Part shown: positions 14,172 to 33,515 of the stretch, in pieces
Position numbering within the stretch: the first letter of the stretch is position 1
Layout: every line of letters begins with the position of its first letter
IMG/VR virus record: IMGVR_UViG_3300030450_001075
Span: 1-33,932 of that record
Strand: one strand, 5' to 3'
Length of the DNA stretch: 33,932 bases
DNA from: a virus
Made by a program: the position numbers and the translations under genes
Notes under the pieces: model-generated
What the model was told of the DNA's origin: nothing
The model's database searches: none
The model's input: the letters and a program-made list of their open reading frames with translations, nothing else

Positions 14172-14618
14172 TTATCTTTCTTTATCGTTATTAACATATT
14201 TTATTGAAGTTTGTAAAACTCTATCCATATAGGTTTCACCCTTCATTATTTTATTTCTTCTTACGCTACTAGGAATATCTTCCTCTCCAAGCATAATTCT
14301 ATATATTCTACTAATTAATTGTTGACCTTTAAATGAAACTTTATAAATATTAAACTTTTGGGTTGTTCTATTTCTGTGTCTCCACACTACAATCCAATCA
14401 TTTTTAATTAATCTATTCCATCTTCTATTATCCCAACTATAAGAATATACTCCTTTTTCAAAATCATGCTTAGTAAAGAGACCTATGCAGTCTAGATATA
14501 TTAATAATTCTAGATCCGCATCTCTTAAGTCGTTATTTCTGGAAGCCCATCTGCGTATTATACGGTAATGTTTTAACAAGTTCATATTTTTAATATCCCT
14601 TGCTTCTAGCTTTTTCAT
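14172..14618 (-). CDS. winged-helix (MarR-like) protein
   Basis: The 148-aa product has a plausible winged helix: helix at about 31-42 (LRDADLELLIYL), a recognition-helix candidate around 61-79 (SWDNRRWNRLIKNDWIVVW), then a wing and strand at 81-102. It may be a transcription factor of the late block, or a virion-block DNA-binding protein. Its start overlaps the end of the GroES gene by four bases, suggesting cotranslation. Fold assignment is by eye. Confidence 0.5.
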   Translation of the reverse strand: MKKLEARDIKNMNLLKHYRIIRRWASRNNDLRDADLELLIYLDCIGLFTKHDFEKGVYSYSWDNRRWNRLIKNDWIVVWRHRNRTTQKFNIYKVSFKGQQLISRIYRIMLGEEDIPSSVRRNKIMKGETYMDRVLQTSIKYVNNDKER

Positions 14619-22817: not shown

Positions 22818-23099
22818 TTATTGTACTACCATTAGAATGCCTGCTGCGTTAAGCGGTGCGGCACCTGCTCCTGTTGTTTGATATATATCTCCTGCGGCTA
22901 ACCCTCCTGCTAACGCTGCTGCATTGTCATCATATTTGGGTTTACCTGCTAATTCTGTTAACGTGTAATTTTTAAGAGTACTTATTCTCCAACATACCGT
23001 TGGATTTTTGCTAGTAACTACAGCGTCTGACTTAGTTCCTGTTATTATATCATCTCCAACTGCTGTTGACTGTAAAGGATAGCTGTAAATTATTGCCAT
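22818..23099 (-). CDS. small MAIIYSYPL protein, first late gene
   Basis: A 93-aa product starting MAIIYSYPLQSTAVGDDIIT, closely matching the start of the 181-aa neighbour, and ending in an Ala/Gly-rich segment with LAAGDIYQTTGAG and LMVVQ. It is the first gene transcribed from the candidate late promoter at 23125-23164, so it may be the most strongly expressed fibre-block gene. Role: tail-fibre adaptor, inferred from the shared module. Confidence 0.7.
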   Translation of the reverse strand: MAIIYSYPLQSTAVGDDIITGTKSDAVVTSKNPTVCWRISTLKNYTLTELAGKPKYDDNAAALAGGLAAGDIYQTTGAGAAPLNAAGILMVVQ

Positions 23100-23533: not shown

Positions 23534-23570
23534 CGAATTATAATACGAGATGAAGAAGATAATATAATAA
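23534..23570 (+). promoter_or_regulatory. early promoter motif copy 1
   Basis: CGAATTATAATAC at 23534-23546 and AGATAATATAATAA at 23557-23570, the two blocks separated by 10 bases (23 from start to start), as in four other copies. It ends 7 bases before the first plus-strand gene start at 23578, so the leader would be very short. Confidence 0.6.
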
Positions 23571-23577
23571 AATCACA

Positions 23578-23775
23578 ATGAAATATAACTATATAAAAAT
23601 AATTAAATCAAATAAAATAATAATATATAATTTATTATTTAATTCTAATAAATTAAATTATTCCTTTAATATAATAAATAATATATTAATAATTAATAAT
23701 AAAGATTTGGACAATGTTATTAAACTATTATCCAAATCATATTACACTCAATCAACATTTAAATTAATAAAATAA
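23578..23775 (+). CDS. unrecognised small protein, first early gene
   Basis: A 65-aa product, Asn/Ile/Lys/Tyr rich (KYNYIKIIKSNKIIIYN). It is a low-complexity but uninterrupted frame directly downstream of promoter copy 1, with a second short gene five bases later. No domain recognised. The composition partly reflects A/T bias, so existence is moderately supported. Confidence 0.5.
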   Translation: MKYNYIKIIKSNKIIIYNLLFNSNKLNYSFNIINNILIINNKDLDNVIKLLSKSYYTQSTFKLIK

Positions 23776-23780
23776 TAACT

Positions 23781-23933
23781 ATGAATTACGAATTTACATT
23801 CAATTTTAAAAACGATGATCCTCTATATATTACTCATGAGACTAATATATTAGATAATGAATTATTACAATTTCTTATTGAAATTGATATTGATTTTAAA
23901 AATATAACTTCTTTTAAAGTTGATAAACTATAA
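23781..23933 (+). CDS. unrecognised 50-aa protein
   Basis: Starts MNYEFTFNFKNDDPLYITHE, acidic. It begins five bases after the preceding stop and ends at 23933, directly before the operator-like repeats. No domain recognised. Confidence 0.5.
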   Translation: MNYEFTFNFKNDDPLYITHETNILDNELLQFLIEIDIDFKNITSFKVDKL

Positions 23934-23989
23934 TATGACAAGTTGTCACACTATGACACTTTGTCGTATACCTATGACACTTTGTCACA
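23934..23989. promoter_or_regulatory. three operator-like repeats with GACA/TGTC half-sites
   Basis: Three near-palindromes follow each other: TATGACAAGTTGTCACA (23934-23950), TATGACACTTTGTCGTA (23952-23968) and TATGACACTTTGTCACA (23973-23989), spaced 18 and 21 bases apart, close to two helix turns. GACA and TGTC half-sites are separated by 3-4 bases. They lie 30 bases before promoter copy 2, so a regulator or replication-initiator binding array is likely. No protein in the window is an obvious partner. Confidence 0.65.
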
Positions 23990-24018
23990 ATATAAACAAA
24001 TATACACTTTTACAATTA

Positions 24019-24051
24019 CGAATTATAATACTAATTGTATTAGATAATATA
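24019..24051 (+). promoter_or_regulatory. early promoter motif copy 2
   Basis: CGAATTATAATAC at 24019-24031 and AGATAATATA at 24042-24051, start-to-start 23 bases. The transcript would have an A/T-rich leader of about 75 bases before the gene at 24128. The GACA/TGTC repeats lie just upstream. Confidence 0.65.
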
Positions 24052-24127: not shown

Positions 24128-24358
24128 ATGACTCAATTAAATTTAAAAAGATTTGTGATAAGAAAATCATTAATCGGTAAGAACACAACTATAAATGTTG
24201 AATTCAAAAATGGTAAAAAAGTAACTTATAATCATGATGAAGTATATGAAATTATGAAAGATAAGTTAAACACTCTACCTTGTTTTGTAAAGTATAATTC
24301 TTATACTTCTTCAACTAATGTACCAGTTGTAGTAAGAGATGTTGTCGAAGTACAGTAA
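24128..24358 (+). CDS. unrecognised early protein
   Basis: A 76-aa product starting MTQLNLKRFVIRKSLIGKNT, basic, with a likely beta-hairpin (NVEFKNGKKVTYNHDEVYE). It is the first gene after promoter copy 2 and is followed by a tRNA-like element. No domain recognised. Confidence 0.6.
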   Translation: MTQLNLKRFVIRKSLIGKNTTINVEFKNGKKVTYNHDEVYEIMKDKLNTLPCFVKYNSYTSSTNVPVVVRDVVEVQ

Positions 24359-24373
24359 ACAACACTCTTAAAT

Positions 24374-24416
24374 TAATATTTTGGAACCAGGAAGAGTTCG
24401 ATTCTCTTCATATTAA
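24374..24416 (+). ncRNA. mini tRNA-like element 1 (acceptor + T arm)
   Basis: An acceptor-like 5' strand TAATATT (24374-24380) pairs with CATATTA (24409-24415), six Watson-Crick pairs with a mismatch at the inner end. A T arm AAGAG-TTCGATT-CTCTT (24392-24408) has the conserved TTCGATT loop. Only 11 bases lie where the D and anticodon arms belong. The discriminator A and the trailer CTAAC follow. Acceptor stem plus T arm is the minimal RNase P substrate shape. The next start codon is 20 bases downstream. A decayed tRNA is the alternative. Confidence 0.5.
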
Positions 24417-24436
24417 CTAACTCTAAATAAATAATT

Positions 24437-26014: not shown

Positions 26015-26086
26015 GTTAATTAGAATTGCTATCACTCACGGAAATTCACTGACAATCATATAACTTATAGGTCTATATAGACAACA

Positions 26087-26133
26087 GAGCATACTACGGT
26101 ACTAAGGCGCGGGTTCGACTCCCGCTATGCTCT
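26087..26133 (+). ncRNA. mini tRNA-like element 2 (acceptor + T arm)
   Basis: GAGCATA (26087-26093) pairs with TATGCTC (26126-26132), extended by an eighth A-T pair (26086/26133); the T arm is GCGGG-TTCGACT-CCCGC (26109-26125). Only 15 bases connect the acceptor strand to the T arm, so there is no room for D or anticodon arms. The discriminator T is followed by CTAAA. The 71 bases upstream (26015-26085) have no gene and contain short complementary segments (GTCTATATAGAC), so a longer RNA is possible. The next start codon is 15 bases away. Every base pair here is clear; the function is not. Confidence 0.55.
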
Positions 26134-26148
26134 CTAAATTAATAAATT

Positions 26149-27781: not shown

Positions 27782-27911
27782 TACCACCACCGGAGGCACA
27801 CCGCTATCTGACGAACTTGAAATAGAGTGACCGGACGATATGAGTGACCCGAGGTTGGTAGGTTGTGGTTGAATCAGTAAACGTTTTCACGAGCTGATTA
27901 CTACAACCGAT

Positions 27912-28023
27912 AACTAGGTTTGGATATTGGAGAAGGCATAAGACTCGGCGGGAGTATTCCTCAGAGCGCTGATTATCCCAATAACTACTGACGAGTAAAG
28001 AGGTTCGATTCCTCTTCTAGTTA
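27912..28023 (+). ncRNA. D-armless tRNA-like element 3 (112 nt)
   Basis: A 7-bp acceptor AACTAGG (27912-27918)/TCTAGTT (28016-28022) with one G-T wobble; T arm AGAGG-TTCGATT-CCTCT (27999-28015); discriminator A and trailer CTAAA. In place of the anticodon stem a helix TATTGG/CCAATA (27925-27930/27978-27983) encloses 47 bases. A small hairpin TACT-GACG-AGTA (27986-27997) precedes the T arm. No D arm is visible. An alternative 5' strand at 27983-27988 would give a mini form. Layout matches element 4. Confidence 0.45.
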
Positions 28024-28030
28024 CTAAATA

Positions 28031-28153
28031 GAGACAGTGGCATACAGGTCACGTTAGGCGATTACCGGGGCATTAGAATCGATCGGGGTGCGTCAAAACA
28101 GAAAACGGTATAAATGATAATTCTAGAAACTACCTGTTCCGAAACACTGTCTC
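28031..28153 (+). ncRNA. nested-stem RNA domain
   Basis: A perfect 9-bp stem GAGACAGTG (28031-28039)/CACTGTCTC (28145-28153) encloses ACAGGT (28044-28049)/ACCTGT (28132-28137) and TAGAAT (28074-28079)/ATTCTA (28120-28125). Three stems in strict nesting over 120 bases form one of the clearest structured parts of the region. It starts right after the trailer of tRNA-like element 3. Confidence 0.6.
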
Positions 28154-28179
28154 ATATGGGCGTGATAAGGTATTGACCG

Positions 28180-28288
28180 AGACGTGGTAACAGTAAGTGT
28201 ATGTGTGTCCTTTTTAGGCATTACGGAAGTGTATTACACTGAATCCAACCGAGTCATGGTAACGCAGGTTCGAATCCTGCCACGTCCA
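28180..28288 (+). ncRNA. D-armless tRNA-like element 4 (109 nt)
   Basis: Acceptor 5' strand AGACGTG (28180-28186) pairs with CACGTCC (28281-28287) through six pairs, the outermost being A-C. T arm GCAGG-TTCGAAT-CCTGC (28264-28280). A helix AGTGTA/TACACT (28196-28201/28235-28240) encloses 33 bases. A small hairpin ACC-GAGTCAT-GGT (28248-28260) sits before the T arm. No D arm. Discriminator A, trailer CTAAA. Same architecture as element 3. Confidence 0.45.
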
Positions 28289-28795
28289 CTAAACTAGGTA
28301 GTAAGAATAACAGTATTGAAATGAACTGGTGAGGGATCGTTATGAACTCAGGAATTTTCAATGAAGCAATCTTACACCTTACCGATTACCTAACAGATAA
28401 GTCGACGTCTTGGCTTCCTTGAGGTATCAATTGTACAAAGCCAGTCGCAGTGACAGTAGTCGGTAAAATATATAGGTGTGGGCACGCGTGCGGTGCCGTT
28501 ACTCGACCTGAGACAAGACGTACGAGCACACCTAAAATATAAGAGGCATTGATGCACCTACATGGTTCAAAGCAGATGTAAGTCCTCATGGGTTAAAACA
28601 CGAAGGACGGAATAGTGTAGTAGTTACTAAACGGATACGCGGAAAACTACAAATTTCTCAACCTGGTAAATATGAGTCAGGTTAATGAGTTAGACACTAG
28701 ACCCCAATTGTGACTTTGCGTTCTGAGCTTAGGCAAGATGTTCACTTAGTACAATTATGAAAGCGTGGATACGTGCACAGTATCACCCAAAATAT

Positions 28796-28869
28796 TGCGG
28801 GATAGAGCAGTTGGTCAGCTCGCGAGCCTCATAAGCTCGAGGTCGTAGGTTCGAATCCTACTCCCGCGT
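28796..28869 (+). tRNA. tRNA-Met (CAU)
   Basis: A canonical cloverleaf: acceptor TGCGGGA/TCCCGCG (first pair T-G), D stem GAGC/GCTC with loop AGTTGGTCA, anticodon stem CGAGC/GCTCG with loop CTCATAA (anticodon CAT), variable loop AGGTC, T arm GTAGG-TTCGAAT-CCTAC, discriminator T. The anticodon stem lacks three consecutive G-C pairs, so it is elongator-like, not initiator. No CCA is encoded; the trailer is CTAAA as in the four tRNA-like elements. Confidence 0.93.
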
Positions 28870-28883
28870 CTAAATTAAATAAA

Positions 28884-32293: not shown

Positions 32294-33024
32294 TGAAAAA
32301 AGAAGATGTAATTAAGAAGTTACGAGATGATAAGCATTATTATGGAGACTTTGGTAAGAAGTATCTTAGTAATTCAGACATTTCAACTTTACTTACAAAT
32401 CCTTTAGCTTTAGGAAAGGCCTCTGAACAGAGACCTGCATTCTTAGTTGGCGGATACTTTCATACCGCTATACTAGAACCAGATAAACTGAAAAAGTACA
32501 AGGTTATACCTTCGTCAACTAGGAATACTAAAGTTTATAAAGAGATGTCTGGTGGAGAATTATGTTTATTACAACACGAAGTAGATTCAATAGAACTTAT
32601 GACTGACAAAATGTTAGATAATAAAGTATGTGAAGCAATGATTCGAGATAGTAATACAGAATATGAAACACCAGAGATTAAAGTAATTGAGGGCGAAGTT
32701 TGGAAAGGTAAAGCAGATATTGTAAATCATAATGAAAAACTAGTAATTGATTTAAAGACTACTAGTGATATTCAAAAATTTAAATGGTCTGCTTCTAAAT
32801 TTAACTACGATTCTCAAGCTTATATTTATAGTGAATTATTTGGTTATGAAATGATTTTTATTGTAATAGATAAAAATACTCATCAACTAGGTATATTCGA
32901 TTGCTCACCAGAATTTTATGCTAAAGGTCAAGACAAAGTCCAACGAGCAGTGGAAGCTTATAGATTATTTTATAAGCAAGAAGGTTTCGATCCAAAGCAA
33001 TATTTTATTAATAAAACCTTATAA
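32293..33024 (+). CDS. RecE-like PD-(D/E)XK exonuclease
   Basis: The 243-aa product has the PD-(D/E)XK layout: an N-terminal helical part with GGYFHTAILE (about 53-62), GKAD (139-142), VIDLKTT (151-157) with the catalytic Asp and Lys, and QAYIY (175-179), the RecB-family Q-x-x-x-Y motif. This matches the DUF3799/RecE C-terminal nuclease family, which makes 3' overhangs for annealing. It is paired with the ERF protein by an ATGA overlap (start 32293). Confidence 0.88.
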   Translation: MKKEDVIKKLRDDKHYYGDFGKKYLSNSDISTLLTNPLALGKASEQRPAFLVGGYFHTAILEPDKLKKYKVIPSSTRNTKVYKEMSGGELCLLQHEVDSIELMTDKMLDNKVCEAMIRDSNTEYETPEIKVIEGEVWKGKADIVNHNEKLVIDLKTTSDIQKFKWSASKFNYDSQAYIYSELFGYEMIFIVIDKNTHQLGIFDCSPEFYAKGQDKVQRAVEAYRLFYKQEGFDPKQYFINKTL

Positions 33025-33206: not shown

Positions 33207-33515
33207 ATGGCAGGAATAGTAAAAGGAAGTATTAACCTTAATATGATACCTAAAGATAAGATTATCCAAGGTAAAAAAGGTAAATACATACCAATATCAA
33301 TAACTGTTAACGATGAAGAAGACCAATTCGGAAACTTTGGACCTATTATCGTTGACCAAACTAAAGAAGAAAGAGAAGCTAAAGTTGCTAAGACTTATTT
33401 AGGTAATGTTAGAGTTGTATGGAGTAATGGAACATTTCCTTCTCCAGGAAGCTTTGACCAAGCTAAATCAGCGCCTAAAGCAGCACCAGTAGCTAACGAT
33501 GATTTACCATTTTAA
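33207..33515 (+). CDS. SSB-like single-strand DNA-binding protein
   Basis: The 102-aa product starts MAGIVKGSINLNMIPKDKII and ends NDDLPF. The acidic-aromatic C-terminal tip D-D-L-P-F is the interaction tail of bacterial SSB proteins. Before it is a Pro/Ala linker (about 80-95) and an N-terminal beta-rich part compatible with a small OB fold (YIPISITVND and further strands). It probably coats ssDNA in the replication/recombination operon. The OB fold itself is judged only by pattern. Confidence 0.7.
   Translation: MAGIVKGSINLNMIPKDKIIQGKKGKYIPISITVNDEEDQFGNFGPIIVDQTKEEREAKVAKTYLGNVRVVWSNGTFPSPGSFDQAKSAPKAAPVANDDLPF

Follow-up and report, generated by a model that had tools for sequence, protein, structure and literature searches.

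A conserved array of TGACA dyads ahead of an early promoter in uncultured podoviruses: candidate binding sites for a dimeric protein

Introduction

What is the role of three short near-palindromes packed together just ahead of an early promoter in a virus genome? The DNA analyzed here (the window) is the whole of IMG/VR record IMGVR_UViG_3300030450_001075, 33,932 bases; it is a fragment from a podovirus akin to the elemoviruses of Flavobacterium. A preliminary description of the locus proposed that the repeats bind a repressor or an initiator. Our literature search found no report of early transcription control, promoters or a replication origin for this podovirus clade, and a review describes the replication mode of the related Crassvirales as unknown (PMC10136315).

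The window encodes a portal protein, terminase, GroEL, ligase, a sigma-like factor, Erf and an exonuclease. Its leftward virion genes end at 22818-23099 and its rightward early genes start at 23578; the array lies near this divergence point and near the minimum of GC skew. Elsewhere in the window, non-ORF stretches (24383-24420, 26080-26135 and 27790-28790) are partly GC-richer and hold pieces resembling tRNA 3' ends (GGTTCGAnTCC), and ARAGORN and Rfam call just one tRNA, at 28796-28870. Small proteins encoded at 33207-33515 and in a relative (L195:9125-9442) form one family, phrog_24909, and the C-terminal DVDLPF of the L195 member resembles an SSB tail.

Results

The array in the window

Direct reading of the sequence gives three sites of the form TGACA-N3-TGTCA, starting at 23936, 23954 and 23975, the second of them with its last base altered, in the following setting:

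23534..23565, plus strand: early promoter copy 1, a motif match without dyads
23781..23933, plus strand: 50-residue open reading frame, its stop two bases ahead of the array
23936..23948, no strand: dyad 1, TGACAAGTTGTCA
23954..23966, within a feature at 23954..23971 (plus strand): dyad 2, TGACACTTTGTCG, inside element B, TGACACTTTGTCGTATAC
23975..23987, no strand: dyad 3, TGACACTTTGTCA
23993..24010, plus strand: block C, TAAACAAATATACACTTT, also found in relatives that lack the array
24019..24050, plus strand: early promoter copy 2, CGAATTATAATAC-N11-GATAATAT, with AATAC at 24027 and GATAAT at 24043
24128..24358, plus strand: 76-residue gene downstream of the array promoter; its counterparts in relatives are 52-92% identical

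The start-to-start spacings are 18 and 21 bp, and about 30 bases separate the array from CGAATTATAATAC, which starts at 24019 and forms the upstream portion of promoter copy 2. The 17-base near-palindrome TATGACA CTT TGTCGTA is an extended form of dyad 2. The cluster is not due to chance, since none of 2000 dinucleotide shuffles reproduced three sites within 60 bp; sites with at most one mismatch averaged 0.1 per 4 kb shuffle. The window holds a single further match at this stringency, at 32604, with one mismatch and inside the exonuclease gene. The array itself is non-coding. Thus the three near-palindromes, their spacings and their distance from promoter copy 2 are all as first described.

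The promoter belongs to a recurrent motif, AATAC-N11-GATAAT with CGAA upstream, which occurs five times in the window, always on the plus strand, and about 5 to 8 times in each relative, on the early strand. From its place, repetition and strand we infer that it is a promoter.

Half-sites are conserved in relatives while spacers drift

A search with the triple pattern returned one true relative (L112), with its array at the equivalent place. Between this array, shared with L156, and that of the window, 0 of 30 half-site bases and 4 of 9 spacer bases are changed; the 50-residue reading frame is missing there and the array is retained. Dyad 1 is likewise kept, with an altered spacer, in L156, L161 and L154. 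A search with the 76-residue gene returned 29 contigs, most of which carry arrays within about 250 bp upstream of it or of a small gene preceding it. The array is found at the same place in most of some 30 related contigs, where it comprises about 4 to 9 half-sites ahead of the first well-conserved early gene; throughout, the half-sites are conserved and the spacers drift. Perfect sites number 1 to 3 in 16 of 18 relative records (0-3 overall), nearly all of them at the array locus.

Across 21 loci the conserved unit is TGWCA-N3-TGWCA, mostly preceded by A. The 47 dyads at these loci comprise 25 direct and 21 inverted arrangements and one TGTCA-N3-TGTCA, with the half-sites always 8 bp apart. 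TGWCA is self-complementary at all but its central base, so direct and inverted orders would offer nearly equal contacts to a two-fold symmetric protein. Dyad-to-dyad spacing is far less constant, mostly 14 to 47 bp in relatives, so a fixed phasing is not conserved: the "two helix turns" first suggested hold for the 21-bp interval of the window, less well for the 18-bp one, and not for the relatives.

The mixture of orientations bears on whether the sites could act as N4-like hairpin promoters for a virion RNA polymerase, each with a 5-bp stem and a 3-base loop. All three window sites do fold in this way when single-stranded, at about -2 to -3 kcal/mol, and a carried virion RNA polymerase serves the early genes of crAss-like phages (PMC10136315). 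However, direct repeats make up half of the units in relatives, and their hairpins have a central mismatch and are much weaker; a distinct early promoter motif is present in 5 to 8 hairpin-free copies; and no RNA polymerase signature was found in the giant proteins examined. We regard this explanation as very improbable. An intrinsic terminator or RNA element was also rejected: the stems are too weak, direct-repeat forms occur, and there is no Rfam match at this locus.

Two further repeats were seen in the course of the comparison. In MW202828 (L184), the palindrome GTGTCGTTAACGACAC occurs several times in the early region at 43745-44830, twice with the same downstream AAAAATCAACACTATCATGG. 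In L261, L262 and L263, an inverted repeat TGACAnTAG...CTAnTGTCA encloses about 40 bp between the late and early genes, some 330-500 bp before the 76-residue gene.

The dyads accompany a rigid B-C element

In a wider panel, many relatives without TGACA dyads retain the 76-residue gene, the promoter, block C, and element B at the place of the array. Such genomes (among them L160/G019, L261, L314, L318, L326, L327, L329 and L350) indicate that the dyads are not required for the promoter in every lineage. Absence of the array from relatives that keep the promoter would speak against the preliminary description; it is in fact common, yet most of the approximately 30 contigs carrying the 76-residue gene do have arrays.

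Comparison of distinct loci reveals what is held constant. The consensus of element B is about TGASACAGTGCGSAATAC, and block C follows the pattern TAAACAAA...ACTTT; the consensus used for matching was drawn by eye from the panel, so that match scores lean toward it, while the offset between B and C was not imposed. In 29 of 40 distinct loci, whether dyads are present or not, the start of B lies precisely 39 bp ahead of C, whereas the distance from C to the promoter varies, mostly between 19 and 34 bp. In the window, dyad 2, with its last base off the palindrome, forms part of B. Since B, C and the promoter also occur without TGACA arrays, the presence of the array is lineage-dependent, and the dyads look like an addition to a rigid B-C unit. 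A host-type promoter in block C (TAnnTTTG, minus strand) was considered and set aside: by eye, just some relatives have the pattern.

A second placement ahead of another early promoter

Six genomes carry a recurrent extra site, TGACAAAATGTCA, ahead of another early promoter located behind tRNA genes. The distance from this site to AATAC or its equivalent is 21 bp in four of them (G001, G002, L192 and L166), 24 bp in L190 and about 27 bp in L191; in a single-site promoter, about 9 bp separate the end of the dyad from AATAC. This second early promoter is followed by small genes with no assigned function. It is mainly because this second site also precedes an early promoter that we prefer transcription control as the role of the dyads, although the second-site promoters are homologous to each other and so represent few independent events.

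Candidate binding proteins

No gene for a DNA-binding protein was found adjoining the array. A search of the rest of the window for a binder, as first proposed, did yield a winged-helix protein (P0001, MarR/PadR-like; 14172-14618, minus strand). In a first panel of 23 genomes its recognition helix appeared to follow the array, NNRRW accompanying arrays and DKNRW their absence. The larger panel includes DKNRW genomes with arrays (L305, L315, L322, L325 and L341); the helix thus fails to track the array, and we rejected the co-variation as evidence that P0001 is its binder. One genome of the comparison (G019, comprising L271 and L258) is a clean late/early mosaic with its junction between 13225 and 13826: late genes by the junction are 82-90% identical to those of G017, and early genes are mostly 81-92% identical to those of the window or G001.

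The proteins of the second-site operon carry no DNA-binding signature and were discarded as regulators. The 76-residue protein has a predicted small beta-beta-beta-alpha-alpha-beta fold; this modelled fold matched no solved structure, and the protein was set aside as a regulator binding the array. Its residues 17-60 resemble the C-terminal region of PorX, a bacteroidete response regulator (NCBIfam E 5e-4, far under the family cut-off), a likeness that possibly reflects mimicry of a host regulator, or chance.

Simple 13-bp dyads are common among the sites of host regulators. Together with our finding no cognate phage protein, this is compatible with the phage sensing or titrating a host regulator through these sites, an explanation we consider unlikely.

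Could the locus be a replication origin?

The alternative that deserves most discussion is that the dyads are iterons to which an initiator of the phage binds, that unwinding takes place in the AT-rich B-C stretch, and that the single site elsewhere would serve as an autoregulatory operator. Several observations favor it. Repeated words of initiator size stand at one locus per genome; in the window, G001 and G006, cumulative GC skew reaches its minimum no more than about 200 bp from the array; and the B-C spacing is fixed at 39 bp while the distance to the promoter drifts. In addition, unrelated viral contigs contain triple arrays of 13-bp palindromes of similar shape, often inside genes, some of them adjoining DnaB/DnaC-like genes as in lambda O origins, and 39 of 55 scanned array-bearing reading frames of such contigs match HTH_36 (E ≤ 0.01).

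Other observations speak against it. The skew switch coincides with the divergent gene orientation and is not independent support for an origin, and in G003 the minimum lies 1.2 kb from the array. A control palindrome also yields arrays (28 contigs, compared with 71), so the word itself is not diagnostic. The single dyad sites stand at an early promoter. Finally, the array of the window lies outside genes, and no HTH_36 or O-like initiator gene was found to contain or flank it: in 13 records no HTH_36 match rose above the cut-off, and sub-threshold matches in G004 and G014 were rejected. We therefore view iterons as possible but rather unlikely. The broader proposal, that B-C with lineage-specific TGWCA dyads forms the replication origin in a large, uncultured clade of bacteroidete-type podoviruses, served by an initiator of an undescribed family, seems to us doubtful.

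Iteron-like TGACANNNTGTCA arrays were observed within the coding sequence of initiator-like phage genes (HTH_36 or weak Phage_rep_O) in L086, L091, L097, L103, L108 and others.

Discussion

The conservation of half-sites and of position supports well the presence of protein-binding repeats before the early promoter, and in all likelihood the dyads do bind some protein. We propose, with a probability of roughly 0.5, that they are binding sites of a dimeric, sequence-specific protein controlling early transcription. In this mechanism, a dimer encoded by phage or host would bind the TGWCA-N3-TGWCA dyads; neighboring dyads would be occupied together, perhaps cooperatively; and from its position upstream of the promoter the bound protein could either raise or lower early transcription of the 76-residue gene and its operon. 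Several dyads of one word near a promoter are what such control sites would present. The proposal is weakened because the sites do not overlap the core promoter (at array promoters at least about 30 bp separate the nearest dyad from AATAC), because the C-to-promoter distance varies, and because the promoter is retained in many relatives that lack the array. It is weakened further because the unique location and the strand-bias switch fit an origin equally well. Of the idea that repressor or initiator binding is involved, the conserved repeats of protein-binding type beside an early promoter are upheld; the regular two-turn spacing is not.

The array is a commonplace type of element in a phage clade that has received little study. 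Its value is that it sharply defines a control element (dyads, B, C and early promoter) in a large group of uncultured podoviruses akin to Flavobacterium phages; we found no description of this composite layout in the literature that could be searched.

It is instructive to compare the locus with known systems. Terminase comparison places MW202828 (Manatee Spring; 63%) and the Flavobacterium elemo phages (43%) nearest among named phages; a TGACA array of the window form was not detected in the parts of these genomes examined, and no named phage was found to carry the array or the 76-residue gene. With N4 early hairpin promoters the window sites share stem and loop size, but the stem is not conserved in relatives and a distinct promoter motif exists. 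The lambda-type origin, whose iterons lie within the gene for the O initiator, and iteron plasmids are similar in having clustered copies of a short word, an AT-rich neighbor and one locus per genome; in contrast, the array here is non-coding, its 13-bp dyads are direct or inverted and irregularly spaced, and it has no identified initiator gene. Operator arrays of the lambda OR/OL type differ in overlapping the core promoter and adjoining a repressor gene, and resemble the present array in placing two to four dyads about 15-23 bp apart beside an early promoter.
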